The notes beneath the pieces are model-generated. The model had not been told where the DNA came from and ran no database searches. It saw only the letters and a list, made by a program, of their open reading frames with translations. From the NCBI RefSeq assembly GCF_017355955.1, contig NZ_JAFFID010000001.1, positions 2,356,001-2,420,000 of the forward strand: 64,000 bases of DNA, read 5' to 3'. The position numbers and the translations under genes are program-made. This DNA comes from Sabulibacter ruber (GTDB lineage Bacteria > Bacteroidota > Bacteroidia > Cytophagales > Hymenobacteraceae). Positions 38,484 to 52,353 of this stretch are shown in pieces; the stretch's first letter is position 1, and each line of letters begins with the position of its first letter.

Positions 38484-38517
38484 TTGTTGATTGTTGATTG
38501 TTGATTGTTGATTGTTG
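38484..38517. repeat. Tandem heptamer repeat TTGTTGA
   Basis: Nearly five exact copies of TTGTTGA beginning eight bases after the RluA-family stop codon. A related heptamer array lies before ureC (50025-50052). Confidence 0.9.
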
Positions 38518-46361: not shown

Positions 46362-46400
46362 CACGCCTGTTTTTAATCTGATTTCCTGAAAACAGGCGTG
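46362..46400. repeat. Dispersed intergenic palindrome (family copy 20)
   Basis: CACGCCTGTTTT (46362-46373) and AAAACAGGCGTG (46389-46400) pair perfectly around a longer, 15-base loop. The copy separates the convergent ureD and ureG genes. Confidence 0.8.
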
Positions 46401-46473
46401 AAACAGCCTTTCGCCTGCCGAATAGGAACTTGCGGGAGCCGCCGGTATCCTTGGGATTACTGAGTGCGCCAGC

Positions 46474-47226
46474 CTACCGCCTATCCTCCCGCACCGATTG
46501 CAGCGCTCTTTCCTTCGCCTGGAAAATATGGTTGATAATCACATCCAGGTTATAGCCGTCCAGCGCGCGGGCAAACACAAACGGACCATCGCCGCGCATC
46601 TTGAGGGAGTCGCGCTCCATCACGCCCAAATCAGCGCGCACCAGAGCCGCGATGTCAATTTTGTTGATCACCAGCAAGTCTGACTGCGTGATGCCCGGCC
46701 CACCCTTGCGCGGAATTTTATCGCCGCCCGAGACATCGATCACATAAATGGAATAATCTACCAACTCGCGGCTGAAGTGGGCCGCCAGGTTATCGCCGCC
46801 GCTTTCCACGAACAGCAGGTCAATCTGGTTATCGAACCGGGCCATAAGGCCTTCCAGCGCATCCATATTCAGGGAGATATCTTCCCTAATAGCGGCGTGC
46901 GGGCACCCGCCGGTCTCCACGCCCACAATGCGGTCGGCGGAGAGGGCGCTGTTCCGGATGAGGAACTCGGCATCCTCGCGGGTAAAGATGTCGTTGGTGA
47001 CCACGCCCAGCTTGTAGTCGTTGCGCAGGCGCTCGCACAGGGCTTTGAGCAGGGCGGTTTTGCCCGTGCCTACCGGTCCGCCGATGCCCACGGTGAACGC
47101 CCGCTTCCGGAAGTTGCGGTAGGGCGGCAGTTTGCGGGTCTCGCGTTCGTCAAAGTTGCCCGGCGATTCATAGAACTCGTGGGTGTGTCCGTGCAGCAGC
47201 AGCGCTAGTTTATCTACAAAAGGCAT
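46474..47226 (-). CDS. ureG: Urease accessory GTPase UreG
   Basis: 250 residues. SIMIBI GTPase that carries nickel and uses GTP hydrolysis to activate urease. P-loop [14 protein letters not shown] (Gly50-Thr57), the metal-binding GGCPH (Cys108, His110) with [16 protein letters not shown], and [17 protein letters not shown] His-containing N-terminal stretch (LHGHTHEF) is longer than in minimal UreG and may add nickel binding. Last gene of the minus-strand operon, after ureF. Confidence 0.97.
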
Positions 47227-47232
47227 AGGATA

Positions 47233-47264
47233 ATGAGTGAATGAGTGGTTGAGTGAATGAGTGA
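47233..47264. repeat. Tandem octamer repeat ATGAGTGA
   Basis: Four near-exact copies of ATGAGTGA fill most of the 43-base gap between the ureF stop and the ureG start. Confidence 0.85.
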
Positions 47265-47269
47265 GTAAT

Positions 47270-47947
47270 TTAATTCTGGAACAGTTTGGAGTAAATGTCT
47301 TCCTGCAAGACCTGTGCGGTGTCCAGCATGAAAGCCGATCTGGTGGCTAGGGTGTACTCTTTGCTTGTTTGGTTTTGGAGCAGATTTTCGAAAATCGAGT
47401 AAAAATTGTGCTGCAGCTTATGCCCTTCCATGGGGCCGATGAAGCCCAGCCGGATGGCGGCGCTCACCTGGTCCCGCAGCGCCATGTGCAGGTACATGGT
47501 TTGGACATCGGAAAGCTCAAACTCCACCCGTTTGAGGCACAGCGCGAACACCAGCACAAAATGCGTGGGCAAGTCCTGCGCCTCAAACCAACGCCGCACC
47601 TCCGGCATGCCCGAGGCCGGGTAGAATGACTCCAGGAGTTTCAGCCAGTTCTTGCCCTGCACCACGCTGGCCTTCCGGATGGTAGGCACCAGCATCATGG
47701 CGTCGTATTCTTCGGCAATGGTTTGGAGGTTGGCGTTCAGATCAGGCGTTGGCAGGTGGCAGCATGAGTTCAGAAACGGAATTTCCATGCCCACCACCTG
47801 CTGCAGGTACGAGTACAGGTAATGCCGCAGCCCCAACCGGTCCTTGATCAGCCCGAACGTGATGCTGCTCTCCAGCCCGTAGGAATAGGCAAACGAGCCA
47901 GTAGGAATGGAAGAATCCACAAGGTGCAGCAGCCGGGCGAATTTCAT
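47270..47947 (-). CDS. ureF: Urease accessory protein UreF
   Basis: 225 residues, all-helical. [22 protein letters not shown] near the N-terminus is the family signature, followed by [16 protein letters not shown]. UreF bridges UreD and UreG in the maturation complex and gates GTPase activity. It lies between ureC (about 350 bases of repeat-rich DNA upstream) and ureG. Confidence 0.94.
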
Positions 47948-47983
47948 TTATGAGATGCTAAAGGTAGCTGTAAGATGGTAGTT

Positions 47984-48018
47984 CTGTTTTGGTGCCGTTT
48001 TGGCGAAAAAAGGCATAA
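47984..48018. repeat. Degenerate dispersed palindrome (family copy 21)
   Basis: GTTTTGGTGCCGTTTTGG then CGAAAAAAGGCATAAAG. It is the weakest-pairing copy in the urease region. Confidence 0.45.
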
Positions 48019-48165
48019 AGTGCATTGGATTAGGAACGATGATCGGGAAACGTGAAGACAAGGCAGTGCCTGGTCTCTACAGGATAACAGAATACCATAT
48101 ATCTGCCGTTGGTCAACCATTCTTAATTCGCAGTCCAATTTGAGATTTCCCGATGTTGAGAATCA

Positions 48166-48277
48166 ACCCACCCCTACCCCTCCGAGGAGGGGAATTCCTA
48201 ATACAGTTAAGATTTAGGCTAAAGCTTCCTTTGAACTACTAGCGGAAAATCCCCTCCTCGGAGGGGTAGGGGTGGGT
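48166..48277. repeat. 28-bp perfect inverted repeat between ureC and ureF
   Basis: Arms at 48166-48193 and 48250-48277 are exact complements; the loop is 56 bases. Each arm also holds its own short palindrome CCCCTCC-GA-GGAGGGG. The GC-rich arms contrast with the AT-rich loop. It lies 23 bases after the ureC stop, so it could stop or protect the ureC transcript. Confidence 0.9.
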
Positions 48278-48299
48278 AAATCGCGTTCCGAATGAATAA

Positions 48300-50021
48300 T
48301 TAAAACAGGTTGTACAGTTGGGCCAGGGGCAGTTTTTCGGCGGGTTCGCAGGTGAGGTGCACGCCGTCCACAGTGACTTTGTAGGTCTCGGGGTCTACCT
48401 CAATGTTGGGCAGGTAGTCGTTCAGGGCCATGTCTTTCTTGGTGACGCTGCGGCAGCCTTTCACGGCCACTACCTGCTTCTGTAAGCCGTAATGCTGCTG
48501 CACATACTCCACCGAGGCCTGCGACACAAACACCATAGACGTCTGCCCGATGGCCTTGCCGAAGGAACCGAACATAGGTCTTGACAAGACCGGCTGCGGC
48601 GTGGGGATAGACGCGTTGGCATCGCCCATCTGCGACTGCACAATGATGCCGCCTTTGATGATCATCTCGGGCCGGGAGCCGAAGAACGCGGGTTTCCAGA
48701 GCACCAGATCGGCCAGTTTACCCAGTTCTACGGAGCCGATTTCCTCGGAGAAGCCGTGCGCTCGGGCCGGGTTTATGGTGTATTTGGCCACGTAGCGCTT
48801 CGCCCGGAAGTTATCGGCCTCTATGTCTTTGCCGTTGTCTTCGGGCAGCAAACCGCGCTGCTGTTTCATTTTATGGGCTGTCTGCCAGGTACGGGTAATC
48901 ACTTCGCCCACCCTGCCCATCGCCTGCGAGTCTGACGAGATAATGGACAAGGCGCCCATGTCATGCAGGATATCCTCCGCGGCGATAGTCTCACCCCGGA
49001 TGCGGCTCTCGGCAAAGGCCACGTCCTCGGGGATGTTTTTATCCAGGTGGTGGCAGACCATGAGCATGTCCAGGTGTTCGTCGATGGTGTTGACCGTGAA
49101 CGGCCGCGTGGGGTTGGTGCTGGACGGAATCACGTTGGGCTCGCCGCAGATCTTGATGATGTCAGGGGCGTGCCCGCCGCCCGCGCCCTCGGTGTGGTAG
49201 GCGTGGATGGTGCGGCCCTTGAACGCCGCTGTGGAGGTCTCCACGAAACCGCTCTCGTTCAAAGTATCGGTGTGGATGCAGACCTGCACGTCGTACTGCT
49301 CGGCAATGGAAAGGCAGGTATCAATGGCCGCGGGCGTGGTGCCCCAGTCCTCGTGGAGTTTGAAGCCCAGCGCGCCGGCCTCCACCTGCTCTATCAGCCC
49401 CTCGGGTTTGGACGAGTTGCCCTTGCCCAGAACCCCGAAGTTCAGCGGATAGGCTTCCGTGGCTTGCATCATCATCTTAATATAGAACTCGCCGGGCGTA
49501 CAGGTGGTAGCCGTCGTGCCCGCCGCCGGACCCGTGCCGCCGCCCACCATGGTGGTCACCCCCGAGGCCAGCGCCTCGTTGATCTGCTGCGGGCTGATGA
49601 AGTGGATGTGGCAGTCAATGCCGCCCGCCGTCAGAACCAGGCCTTCGCCCGCTACTACTTCGGTGGTCACGCCCACCACCATGCCTGAGGTGACGCCCGG
49701 CATGATGTGCGGATTGCCTCCTTTCCCGATGCCGGAGATGCGCCCGTTCTTCACCCCGATATCGGCTTTGTAGATACCGGTGTAGTCCAGGACTAGCGCA
49801 TTGGTGATGATAAGGTCCAGTGCCTCAGCCTGCCCGATGCCGGCTGCCTGGCCCATTCCGTCGCGGAGCACCTTCCCGCCCCCGAACTTGCATTCCTCGC
49901 CGTAGACGGCGTAATCCTTTTCTACCTGGATCACCAGATCGGTGTCTCCAAGGCGAACGCGGTCGCCCACGGTGGGTCCGTACATCTCGGCATAGGCGCG
50001 GCGGTCAAGGGGAAGGCTCAT
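48300..50021 (-). CDS. ureC: Urease subunit alpha (catalytic)
   Basis: 573 residues from the ATG at 50021. Hydrolyses urea to ammonia and carbamate at a two-nickel centre. Nickel ligands and catalytic residues are all present: His138, His140, Lys221 (carbamylated, in GFKLHEDWG), His250, His276, Cys323-His324 and Asp364, each four higher than in Klebsiella. The longer frame from 50084 runs through a tandem heptamer repeat and a palindrome, giving the low-complexity leader [10 protein letters not shown], so I reject it. The flap MVCHHL is intact, so an active enzyme is expected. Confidence 0.98.
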
Positions 50022-50024
50022 ATT

Positions 50025-50052
50025 TTGATTGTTGGTTGCTGGTTGTTGATTG
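50025..50052. repeat. Tandem heptamer repeat before ureC
   Basis: Four units: TTGATTG, TTGGTTG, CTGGTTG, TTGATTG. It ends three bases from the ureC start codon and is transcribed in the leader. Confidence 0.8.
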
Positions 50053-50085
50053 TTTTTGGGCTTTTTTGAGGAAAACAGGCTCAAG
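50052..50085. repeat. Dispersed intergenic palindrome (family copy 22)
   Basis: GTTTTTGGGCTTTTTTG then AGGAAAACAGGCTCAAG; moderately degenerate. It sits directly beside the heptamer array. Confidence 0.6.
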
Positions 50086-50125
50086 CGGAAGTTCGGTTTT
50101 TCTGGTTTGCCAGCGTTCTTTTCTG

Positions 50126-50195
50126 CTATGGCGCGGAGGTTACTTCCGTGCCTTGCCTGTGTTCAAAAGTCACGGAAGTAACTTCCGCGCCATAG
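50126..50195. repeat. 25-bp inverted repeat between ureAB and ureC
   Basis: Arms 50126-50150 and 50171-50195 are complementary with one mismatch and a 20-base loop. Each arm contains GGCGCGGA and TTACTTCCGTG elements, with an inner palindrome GGAAGTAACTTCC in the second arm. Confidence 0.9.
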
Positions 50196-50258
50196 TAGGT
50201 AGATTCAAATGCAACTCATTTCAGGTTCGTTTTCAGAAAAACTGACCATAAACGAAGC

Positions 50259-51014
50259 TTAAGGAGTACTAAAAAAATTCTGCTGACTCGCCTTCTCCAG
50301 AGCTTCGGCTTTGTGGTCATCAGAAAGTTGCCCGTCTACCAGCTTATTACCGCAGTAGCTGATTCTTTCACCTGAGAGTTCCACCAAGGTCACCCGTTTC
50401 CGTTCGCCGGGCTCAAAGCGCACGGCCGTGCCAGCCGGAATGTTGAGGCGGAATCCGTAGGCTTTTGCGCGGTCAAACTGCAAAAGGGCATTGGTTTCGA
50501 AGAACGGATAATGGGAACCCACCTGCACCGGCCGGTCGCCCATGTTGGTGACTTCCACTTCTATTGTAGTGCGGTCCTGGTTGAGCGTGAGCTTGTCTTC
50601 TCCCAGCAGGTACTCGCCGGGATTGGGTTGAATGAGCGTGTCTAGCGGGGCGGTTTGCGCGGTTTTGGTGAGCCCGGAGCCGTACAGGGCCAGTTCAGGA
50701 GCGCCTTGTTCCCGGCAGATGGGATGGTGCACGGTGACCAGTTTGGTACCATCGGGAAAAGTGCCTTCCACCTGCACCTCGTGGATCAGCTCGGCCACGC
50801 CTTCCATGACATCGGCGAAGCCCAGGAGCTTTTTGCCTTTGTCCATGAGGGTGGCCACCCGCTCGCCGTCCCGGATGAACTCCAGCAACTGTGTGGCGAT
50901 GAGGGCCACCGCCTCGGGGTAGTTGAGCTGCAGGCCGCGGGCGTAGCGTTTCTGGGCCACGAAACCGGCATTGTGCAGCACCAGTTTGTCTATGTCTTTG
51001 GGCAAAAGATGCAT
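50259..51014 (-). CDS. ureAB: Urease gamma-beta fusion subunit
   Basis: 251 residues combining the gamma subunit (about 1-100: [39 protein letters not shown] to [21 protein letters not shown]) with the beta subunit (about 130-240: [58 protein letters not shown]). Helicobacter has the same kind of fusion (its UreA), and gamma-beta fusions occur in some other lineages. It forms the scaffold around the UreC active site. It lies between the SelW-like gene and ureC on the same strand. Confidence 0.96.
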
Positions 51015-51020
51015 GAGAGG

Positions 51021-51055
51021 GAGTTCTGAGTCTTGAGTTCTGAGTCTAGAGTCTG
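51021..51055. repeat. Tandem heptamer repeat before ureAB
   Basis: Five units: GAGTTCT, GAGTCTT, GAGTTCT, GAGTCTA, GAGTCTG. They fill nearly all of the 42-base gap between the SelW-like stop (51057) and the ureAB start (51014). Confidence 0.85.
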
Positions 51056-51056
51056 G

Positions 51057-51335
51057 TTATTTTTTATCTGAGTGGCCGAGGCTTTTCTCGGGGTTCACCT
51101 GGTCACGGACGAGTTGCTTGAGTTCCTTGATCTCGGGGAAGCGTCCAGCAGTTTTCCGGTCAAAAATCACCTGATCGTTGACCCGGATGATATAGGAGCC
51201 GCTGGTCTCGCTGGGTTCCAGGAGCACGCCTTTCAGGTCCTCTGTGAAAGTGGTGAGCAGTTCCTGGGCCATGTAGGCGGCGCGCAGCATCCAGCCGCAT
51301 TTGGGGCAATATTCTATGCTGACGGTAGGTTTCAT
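51057..51335 (-). CDS. SelT/SelW/SelH (Rdx) family thioredoxin-like protein in the urease operon
   Basis: 92 residues with the Rdx fold: SIEYCPKCGWMLRAAYMAQE at the N-terminus with the CxxC pair Cys10/Cys13, then the strand SGSYIIRVNDQVIFDRKTAGRFPEIKELK, characteristic of SelW-like proteins. In animals the second position is selenocysteine; here it is Cys. The family has redox or oxidoreductase roles. It lies between ureH and ureAB on the same strand with small gaps, so it is coexpressed with urease. No ureE is present, so a metal- or thiol-related helper role is a reasonable but unproven idea. Confidence 0.85.
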   Translation of the reverse strand: MKPTVSIEYCPKCGWMLRAAYMAQELLTTFTEDLKGVLLEPSETSGSYIIRVNDQVIFDRKTAGRFPEIKELKQLVRDQVNPEKSLGHSDKK

Positions 51336-51369
51336 TTAGGGGCTAGTTTTGGGAAAAGAGGAAGAAAAC
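51336..51369. repeat. Very degenerate dispersed palindrome (possible family copy 23)
   Basis: TTTAGGGGCTAGTTTT then GGGAAAAGAGGAAGAAAAC. It keeps the family layout in the 45-base gap before the SelW-like gene, but pairs poorly. Reported as a weak candidate. Confidence 0.3.
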
Positions 51370-51380
51370 GACCATCAAGG

Positions 51381-52007
51381 TTACAGAATCAGGTTTTCGT
51401 ACATCATCCAGCCGCCGTAGGTCACGCACAGCACCGAGGAAACCACCACCATGCCCATCCGTACGCTTCGGCCAATTTTCATGCGCTGGGTGAAAGGGAT
51501 GTTTACCAGTCCGGCGGCTACAAACATGCCCAGAATGGAGCCCAACCCAAACATGACCAAGTACGCCACGCCCAGCCACGGATTCTCGATCTTGCCCATG
51601 ATGGAAATCACTAAGGCCCCGCTGCCAGCCAAGCCGTGGATCAGGCCCACGGTGTAGGCATAGCTGTGCTGGTAGCGCGGGGTTCTGGTTCTTGAGAAGT
51701 TCTGTTTGTTAGTCAACCGGCTGATGCCCATGATCACGAGCATCAATCCAACCCCGGCCTCAAAATACCCGAAGCCAGCTTCATAATTAGTAGAGTGCAG
51801 GAAAATAACCTGGCTCAGAATGATGAGCGAGCCCAGCAGCACAATGGTGGTGGTATGGCCCAGGCCCCAGAACAAGCCGTCTTTCATGGCCAGGAGCCAA
51901 CTGTCGCGCTTGGAGACAATGTTGCCCACGGCAATGAGGTGGTCTGCCTCAAACGCGTGGCCCATTCCCACCAGAGAAGCGAACATGAGAGGCAACAAAG
52001 TCTGCAT
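51381..52007 (-). CDS. ureH: UreH-like nickel permease (HX4DH type)
   Basis: 208 residues with six to seven membrane helices. The NiCoT/UreH signature is GMGHAFEADHLIAV, with His17-x4-Asp22-His23 forming the nickel site; GLFWGLGHTTTIVLLG is the second conserved motif. It probably imports nickel for urease across the inner membrane. It is the first gene of the operon ureH, SelW-like, ureAB, ureC, ureF, ureG. Confidence 0.92.
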   Translation of the reverse strand: MQTLLPLMFASLVGMGHAFEADHLIAVGNIVSKRDSWLLAMKDGLFWGLGHTTTIVLLGSLIILSQVIFLHSTNYEAGFGYFEAGVGLMLVIMGISRLTNKQNFSRTRTPRYQHSYAYTVGLIHGLAGSGALVISIMGKIENPWLGVAYLVMFGLGSILGMFVAAGLVNIPFTQRMKIGRSVRMGMVVVSSVLCVTYGGWMMYENLIL

Positions 52008-52317: not shown

Positions 52318-52353
52318 GTTTCCGGCCTGTTTTACCTAAAACAGGCCGGAAAC
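52318..52353. repeat. Dispersed intergenic palindrome (family copy 24), perfect
   Basis: GTTTCCGGCCTGTTTT (52318-52333), loop ACCT, AAAACAGGCCGGAAAC (52338-52353): 16 perfect pairs. It is the best-preserved member and lies 31 bases beyond the end of the LacI regulator gene. Confidence 0.95.

Follow-up and report, generated by a model that had tools for sequence, protein, structure and literature searches.

The degenerate tandem arrays that precede ureG, ureC and the fused ureAB gene in this urease operon are start-edge members of a genus-wide class of degenerate 7- and 8-bp arrays. Across the genus, members of this class occupy gene edges in a set orientation and at places common to species, and their unit number changes. 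The usual interpretation of tandem repeats in bacterial non-coding DNA is slippage noise or the switching of single genes, and the result warns against supposing that arrays ahead of a single operon serve to tune that operon alone. An earlier note had described the repeats as a feature of the urease operon, a view that is not supported, as similar arrays also flank genes elsewhere in the genome. The features are listed in Table 1, with positions counted along the window, the whole 64,000-nucleotide stretch of DNA that was analysed.

Table 1. Genes, arrays and inverted repeats of the urease operon
Feature	Position	Strand	Details
ureG	46474..47226	-	Pfam cobW/HypB/UreG
Octamer array 5' of ureG	47232..47264	-	TRF; coding strand TCACTCATTCACTCAACCACTCATTCACTCATT; occupies most of the 43-nt ureF-ureG gap
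ureF	47270..47947	-	Pfam UreF
Inverted repeat I1, ureC-ureF gap	48166..48277	.	31-nt arms, 50-nt loop
ureC	48300..50021	-	ATG at 50021; Pfam urease alpha (query began one codon early)
Degenerate heptamer array 5' of ureC	50025..50054	-	TRF; coding strand AACAATCAACAACCAGCAACCAACAATCAA
Inverted repeat I2, ureAB-ureC gap	50123..50198	.	32-nt arms, 12-nt loop
ureAB, gamma and beta subunits fused	50259..51014	-	Pfam Urease_gamma and Urease_beta
Heptamer array 5' of ureAB	51021..51054	-	TRF; coding strand AGACTCTAGACTCAGAACTCAAGACTCAGAACTC; occupies most of the 42-nt gap
Rdx family (SelW-like) gene	51057..51335	-	Pfam Rdx
NicO-like membrane protein ('ureH')	51381..52007	-	Pfam, under family cut-off

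Pfam likewise confirmed UreD in the operon, while the 'ureH' match to NicO scored 21 bits against a family cut-off of 27.7. The start codon of ureC is kept in relatives by sequence comparison. Three congeners have a match to the SelW-like gene in their urease loci, and none was found in 17 other urease loci searched (12 kb each). Among the five gaps within the operon, three carry a 7- or 8-mer array and two a strong inverted repeat, with one gap having both. The claim that every gap is filled by a repeat was thus too strong: the 45-nt SelW-ureH gap, where a weak palindrome had been described, has no repeat of at least 14 nt in our repeat search. At the same threshold, the separate 'degenerate palindrome' described for the ureF-ureC gap was also absent from the repeat list. 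The octamers and both sets of heptamers were recovered by TRF where the earlier note had seen them, directly 5' of the three start codons, and the two inverted repeats were found as well.

The array 5' of ureG is an 8-mer in 4.1 copies that ends 5–6 nt from the start codon, that of ureC a 7-mer in 4.3 copies ending 3 nt from the ATG, and that of ureAB a 7/14-mer ending 6 nt from the start codon (periods and copies by TRF, distances by sequence). Copies within the three arrays match at 76–84% (7/8-mer, TRF), so these are not pure repeat tracts. A gain or loss of units would not alter the bases adjoining the start codon. The octamer pattern has three matches in the window against 0.08 expected, and none of 100 shuffles reached three. 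The clustering of arrays in the operon was noticed first and counted afterwards.

The window is from Rufibacter, and congeners carry the arrays 5' of ureC and ureG, the latter at other lengths. Counted by hand from the sequence, the SelW-ureAB gap measures 42 nt in the window, 35 in R. sediminis, 21 in R. hautae and 41 in Rufibacter sp. SYSU D00344, differing by steps of 7 and 14 nt in two of the three congeners; the ureF-ureG gap measures 43, 31, 40 and 23 nt in the window and the three congeners, with no clean steps of 8. Array and gap lengths therefore vary between related species and are not identical in all relatives. These changes in urease-leader length are probably close to neutral.

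In the parts of the genome sampled, the arrays are biased in period and position. Under strict period criteria, 464 kb yielded three intergenic arrays at lag 7 and four at lag 8, with single arrays at lags 12 and 17 besides the multiples of 7 and 8; lags 4–6, 9–11 and 13 had none, and a single shuffled copy of the sequence had none at all lags scanned. In 1.06 Mb with 689 gaps, we counted 17 period-7 and 7 period-8 arrays, and nine arrays for periods 5, 6, 9, 10, 11 and 13 together. Twenty of the 24 period-7/8 arrays lie no more than 12 nt from a gene edge (7.9 expected) and four are mid-gap. The strand running into the gene has more C than G in 17 of the 20 edge arrays; two of the three exceptions are window arrays that fill whole gaps of 42–43 nt and were counted as stop-edge in this tally. 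None of the 136 divergent gaps in the 1.06 Mb sample holds an array. Mean autocorrelation over 215 gene leaders has no excess at lags 7 or 8, and most genes are therefore without arrays.

The octamers, picked by pattern with up to one mismatch, follow the same rule against uncurated longest-ORF gene calls, with arrays inside an ORF of the simple caller excluded (one here, five in congeners, six elsewhere). In 41 of 45 cases their C-rich strand leads into a start or stop codon no more than 12 nt away; the trailing end does so in 3 of 45. Stop codons are the commoner site (29 vs 17 start codons), the arrays frequently include the stop codon itself (negative distances), and octamers occur between convergent genes too, where no translation starts. 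Both gene edges carry an octamer in 12 of 34 places, and one array stands alone in the other 22. Inverted pairs run in the order reverse complement then forward in 30 cases and never in the other (73 loci, some of them orthologous and not independent). Certain positions inside the octamer word are fixed, and several different words with two periods coexist in one genome. The reverse octamer contains TGA, and the stop-edge pattern was considered as an artefact of ORF calling; this was rejected as a general account because several orthologous proteins align over their full length up to the array (440/440, 379/379 and 399/399 residues).

The same placement is found in other species. In three congeners, octamers point at a gene edge in 40 of 47 cases and trail in one of 47, and three of the 47 arrays are in divergent gaps. 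Outside the genus, a hand count gave 15 of 23 pointing and one of 22 trailing, with 4/6, 11/15 and 0/2 pointing in genomes G025, G117 and G322. Of 40 congener octamer loci examined, 28 are orthologous to octamer loci here: 15 of 19 in G004, for which every octamer place but the urease one was taken; 8 of 14 in G014, these being places among the matches listed; and 5 of 7 in G006, chosen from the places listed with perfect matches and paired sites favoured. Units change fast between species while the sites stay common, and octamer matches range from 0 to 100 per genome across 16 Rufibacter genomes. A mobile element with array ends was rejected as a general account: the stretch between the arms differs in orthologous gaps and the arms remain in several.

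The inverted repeats I1 and I2 form a separate class of mid-gap palindromes, unlike the 7/8-mer arrays. The arms of I1 (48166–48196 and 48247–48277), which the earlier note had called a perfect inverted repeat, match at 97% (repeat search); I1 has eight matches at three genome places and is missing from the ureC-ureF gap in the three congeners. The arms of I2 (50123–50154 and 50167–50198) match at 91%. I2 is an interspersed palindrome with at least 86 matches at no fewer than 40 genome places, a lower bound as 40 of 82 candidates were scored. It is common to the window and R. sediminis at the ureAB-ureC gap, and is missing there in the two other congeners. None of 20 I2 loci lies within 12 nt of a gene edge.

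The flanking sequence differs at array edges in the stop and start codons it presents. Within 35 nt downstream of the stop codon, all three frames contain a stop at 8 of 12 array edges and 54 of 615 others (Fisher p 2e-6), and at 24 of 26 octamer stop edges. The 35 nt upstream of the start codon are free of further start codons at 7 of 9 array edges and 265 of 648 others (p 0.04), a difference that rests on 9 arrays; the same is true of 14 of 15 octamer start edges. We prefer these figures, taken from equal 35-nt stretches outside the codon, in which the two gap-filling window arrays were counted at both edges. A comparison of unequal lengths (arrays of 29–60 nt against a 35-nt background) gave all-frame stops in 10 of 11 against 61 of 621, but it favours arrays and some included the gene's own stop codon. 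Read on the outward strand, start-edge arrays also carry all-frame stops in 7 of 9 cases, with the two gap-filling arrays counted here as start-edge. The fraction of unpaired positions from -30 to -1 is 0.82 for the ureG leader and 0.80 for that of ureC (region taken 3 nt off), where 318 leaders have a median of 0.54 and a 90th percentile of 0.73. Many leaders are at least as unpaired as that of ureAB (0.66), and the value for the array-free ureF is 0.62.

The reading we favour, though tentatively and at somewhat less than even chances, is that the arrays are translation-boundary spacers made by slippage and filtered by selection. Slippage would make the degenerate 7- and 8-bp arrays, and selection would keep them where they suit translation boundaries, with a G-poor strand into the gene and a stop-codon-rich strand out of it. 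Ahead of a start codon, the array could serve as a leader with little structure and, for the most part, no further start codons; after a stop codon, its reverse complement would tend to supply stops in all frames, since neither 7 nor 8 is divisible by three. To our knowledge, Shine-Dalgarno pairing is not used in this phylum. Initiation in F. johnsoniae is favoured by low structure, and AUG is under-represented immediately 5' of its start codons (PMC6847099). The period bias, edge placement, strand bias and one-way inverted pairs agree with such spacers, as do the all-frame stops at stop edges, the start-free leaders, the unpaired ureG and ureC leaders and the orthologous places. Several observations count against them. 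The sampled divergent gaps held no array, though leaders there should need them equally; separate start and stop roles leave the octamers often found at a second gene edge unexplained; and the outward all-frame stops of start-edge arrays fall where they would serve no evident purpose. The wide range of octamer matches among the 16 Rufibacter genomes is odd for a needed feature, the ureAB leader is not unusually open, and the flat leader autocorrelation leaves few genes with arrays. A broader proposal, that species-specific 7- and 8-nt words act as orientation-locked gene punctuation in Rufibacter and related Cytophagales, giving a start-free leader one way and an all-frame stop cassette the other, with words renewed by slippage and places kept, is speculative and rather improbable as it stands. 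If true, the rule of edge, strand and place would offer a testable handle on how boundaries are marked without Shine-Dalgarno pairing.

Rho-dependent termination or a polar roadblock was set aside, as start-edge arrays would halt their own gene's transcript. An RNA hairpin, in which a stop-side array pairs with an inverted one that precedes the following start or stop codon and the stem-loop spans the gap to protect the upstream message, end transcripts or couple translation, is the nearest competitor, although we consider it unlikely. It would account for the single order of inverted pairs and for the lean of octamer gaps towards convergent (10/35, Fisher p 0.055) and away from divergent ones (2/35, p 0.097). 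Compared with shuffles, folding is more stable in gaps that have two octamer arms (mean z -8.5, 10 gaps; one-armed -2.1, 22 gaps), and edge-to-edge arms scoring at least 14 are in excess in tandem gaps (four vs 0.3 expected here, five vs 0.0 in relatives), though also in convergent gaps (10 here and eight in relatives, many resembling ordinary terminators) and in divergent gaps of relatives (three vs 0.1 expected). The frequent lone octamer arrays do not fit a hairpin, and neither do the urease arrays, which have no partner arm. Selection on paired arms was unsupported in three tests: arms from one gap are no better matched than swapped ones (p 0.11 and p 0.21), and hence not beyond the common word, and a comparison of species showed no covariation of arms (p 0.94).

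That unit-number changes 5' of ureC, ureAB and ureG alter urease translation and create variation, the role suggested for the arrays in the earlier note, seems improbable, and slippage-based tuning of translation is possible but unproven. The arrays do end 3–6 nt from start codons and have different lengths in different species, the ureAB leader being 7 and 14 nt shorter in two congeners, and copy number of Moraxella repeat tracts between promoter and start codon is reported to change expression (PMC4679880). The degeneracy of the arrays should however lower slippage, length differences 5' of ureG do not come in multiples of 8, and octamers are commoner at stop codons and lie between convergent genes. 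Less probable still are binding sites for a trans-acting RNA- or DNA-binding factor, one per unit, as suggested for TAACTGA repeats in PMC4679880; a single genome-wide word with fixed positions, the orientation rule and species-specific abundance would suit such a factor, but several words and two periods coexist, and an RNA-binding factor would meet two motifs, since the message contains the C-rich word near a start but the complementary word near a stop. At least as doubtful, and slightly the least probable, is neutral growth of repeats between genes, the pattern of edges and strands being what remains after removal of arrays that harm a neighbouring gene. Fast-changing units and the 0–100 octamer matches among congeners agree with it, and heptamers are the commonest longer-unit class in most genomes surveyed (Mrazek 2007, as reported in PMC4679880). 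Yet mid-gap positions, free of such removal pressure, hold few arrays (4/24), whereas I2 palindromes sit there, and the places are common to species (28/40).

Among known systems, cyanobacterial STRR repeats are intergenic heptamer arrays like those here, and we know of no edge or orientation rule for them. Our literature search found no paper on Rufibacter intergenic repeats. I2 resembles REP elements and interspersed palindromes (PMC3733652) in being a short palindrome with numerous intergenic copies; it differs in its 0–86 matches per genome among 16 congeners (lower bounds in five). The genome also has four Y1_Tnp matches, candidates for an associated RAYT-type transposase. Contingency loci such as the uspA2 AGAT tract of Moraxella (PMC4679880) likewise place short tandem units between promoter and start in arrays of variable length, a variation seen here between species; the units here, however, are degenerate and lie also at other loci and stop codons. 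For heptamer and octamer repeats, the sole close precedent among the matches listed is the TAACTGA paper (MacGregor 2015, PMC4679880), which describes intergenic heptamer repeats in Beggiatoaceae, cyanobacteria and five Bacteroidetes. Of 170 sets, 132 and a further 15 run toward a start codon and 12 toward a stop codon, the sets hold related unit variants, and strains differ by 7 nt in length. The TAACTGA unit is absent from the three urease arrays (sequence and TRF, those three arrays only). Common to both are tandem intergenic heptamers in one orientation ending within nucleotides of a gene edge; the arrays here differ in having several words, in including octamers, which favour stop edges, in forming inverted pairs that span gaps, in occurring in convergent gaps too, and in having places common to species.

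The window belongs to a Rufibacter genome, its ureF having named relatives at 90–95% identity in Rufibacter sp. SYSU D00344, R. sediminis and R. hautae; its urease operon is laid out in the table below. Each of ureC, ureAB and ureG has a short array of degenerate 7- or 8-nt tandem repeats that ends 3–6 nt before its start codon, and there are two strong inverted repeats, I1 in the ureC–ureF gap and I2 in the ureAB–ureC gap. The earlier note, which had every gap of the operon filled by a different kind of repeat, was largely right about the arrays before three urease starts, but its framing as a urease matter was too narrow, the class being genus-wide. The weak palindrome it placed between the SelW-like gene and ureH was not recovered, with no repeat of at least 14 nt found in that gap.

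Urease genes (in operon order), repeats and neighbouring features in the window
Feature	Window position	Strand	Remark
NicO-like gene ('ureH')		minus	
Rdx (SelW-like) gene	51057-51335	minus	matched in three congeners only, among 20 relatives' urease loci
fused ureAB		minus	
ureC		minus	
ureF		minus	
ureG		minus	
ureD		plus	convergent to the minus-strand urease genes
I1	48166-48277		inverted repeat
I2	50123-50198		inverted repeat
Octamer match	47249-47264		perfect in the window search, absent from the whole-genome list
Heptamer array	38484-38517		perfect (TTGTTGA)x4.9 in a gap of 693 nt, with a stop codon 5 nt away; class member
Hairpin-like stretch	46362-46401		AAAACAGGC kind, between ureG and ureD, spotted by eye
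I3	52318-52353		inverted repeat, hairpin-like, AAAACAGGC kind, upstream of the NicO-like gene

The repeats in the urease gaps are of two classes, interspersed palindromes and 7/8-mer arrays, the arrays behaving differently from the palindromes. In this genome I2 has at least 86 matches, spread over about 40 places (40 of 82 candidates scored, every palindrome counting on both strands); across 16 Rufibacter genomes the number runs from 0 to 86, five of these counts being lower bounds. It sits mid-gap, all 20 loci lying more than 12 nt from the nearest gene edge (two places entered twice, once per strand), and occupies the urease gap in R. sediminis but not in the other two congeners. The R. sediminis copy continues into a stretch of N. 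I1 has eight matches at three places and is missing from the urease gap of all three congeners compared. Stretches resembling AAAACAGGC-kind hairpins recur in many other listed gaps.

A survey of 689 gaps, drawn from 664 kb of sequence here and 400 kb from relatives, gave 17 arrays of period 7 and seven of period 8, versus nine in total over six other periods. Twenty of these 24 were no more than 12 nt away from a gene edge, where uniform placement expects 7.9, and the 136 divergent gaps of the survey held no array. Of the 20 edge arrays, 17 had more C than G when read in the direction that runs into the gene; two of the three exceptions are window arrays that fill the entire gap, leaving the nearer edge ambiguous.

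A whole-genome pattern search for the octamer word (consensus of 426 units, T-C-[A/T]-[C/T]-T-C-A-[A/T]) found 46 arrays at 34 places, in site lists that may omit the window. These face 29 stop and 17 start codons. The C-rich strand is aimed at such a codon within 12 nt in 41/45 arrays (one inside an ORF left out), the trailing end being so close in 3/45. In three congeners the leading end is at a gene edge in 40/47 and the trailing end in 1/47; outside the genus the counts are 15/23 (G025 4/6, G117 of another family 11/15, G322 0/2) and 1/22. Gaps with two arrays always had the order rc...fwd (30, against 0 fwd...rc; 73 loci, orthologous gaps included). A long run of TCAC tetramers (G000:C111:131875-131934) is among the pattern matches.

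The arrays vary between species. The gap before ureAB measures 42 nt in the window, 35 nt in R. sediminis, 21 nt in R. hautae and 41 nt in SYSU D00344; before ureG the corresponding lengths are 43, 31, 40 and 23 nt. At 28 of the 40 octamer loci examined in three congeners, the neighbours are orthologous to those of an octamer locus here, with the order of units and the inter-arm stretch differing between species. For L160/L327, L176/L309 and L344/L322, the 5′ arm matches the other species' 3′ arm better than its own partner, and by this sequence comparison the gaps look as if inverted through recombination between arms. The 16 Rufibacter genomes have between 0 and 100 octamer matches each (reversed control pattern, 0–3). 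The word is patchy across 296 sampled Bacteroidota genomes: 100 matches here (control 0), 96 in G025 (49), 38 in G117 (2), 15 in G259 (3), 9 in G322 (0) and at most 5 in the remainder. Since reversed control patterns are plentiful in G025 (49 matches in one search, 19 in another), this genome may use further words.

We tentatively read the urease arrays as spacers at translation boundaries, a preferred reading held at somewhat under even confidence. All three frames are stopped in the 35 nt following the stop codon at 8/12 array edges versus 54/615 others, and the 35 nt before the start codon lack ATG, GTG and TTG at 7/9 versus 265/648; octamer edges alone give 24/26 and 14/15. Upstream of the start, ureG has a predicted unpaired probability of 0.82, ureC of 0.80 (taken 3 nt off) and ureAB of 0.66; the array-free ureF leader has 0.62 and the median of 318 leaders is 0.54. 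A spacer role fits these features, as it does initiation in F. johnsoniae, which is reported to need low structure and bases close to the start codon, with AUG depleted just upstream (PMC6847099). It is weakened by start-edge arrays being absent or rare between divergent genes and by the occurrence of two arrays together at 12/34 octamer places. That joint occurrence would be accounted for by an RNA hairpin, which paired inverted arrays may form across the gap, as would the finding that two-armed gaps fold strongly (mean z −8.5 vs −2.1 for one-armed). However, arms of the same gap are not specially matched to each other and lack covariation between species, and none of the urease arrays has a partner arm.

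The urease arrays remain for us candidate translation-boundary spacers, and they belong to a class spread throughout the genus and seen outside it. Among titles and abstract openings on heptamer and octamer repeats, no description was found of the octamer stop-edge majority, the inverted pairs or the shared places. The TAACTGA repeats are the closest precedent, reported with 147 of 170 sets oriented toward a start codon and 12 toward a stop codon (PMC4679880); these orientations obey the same rule as the arrays described here.
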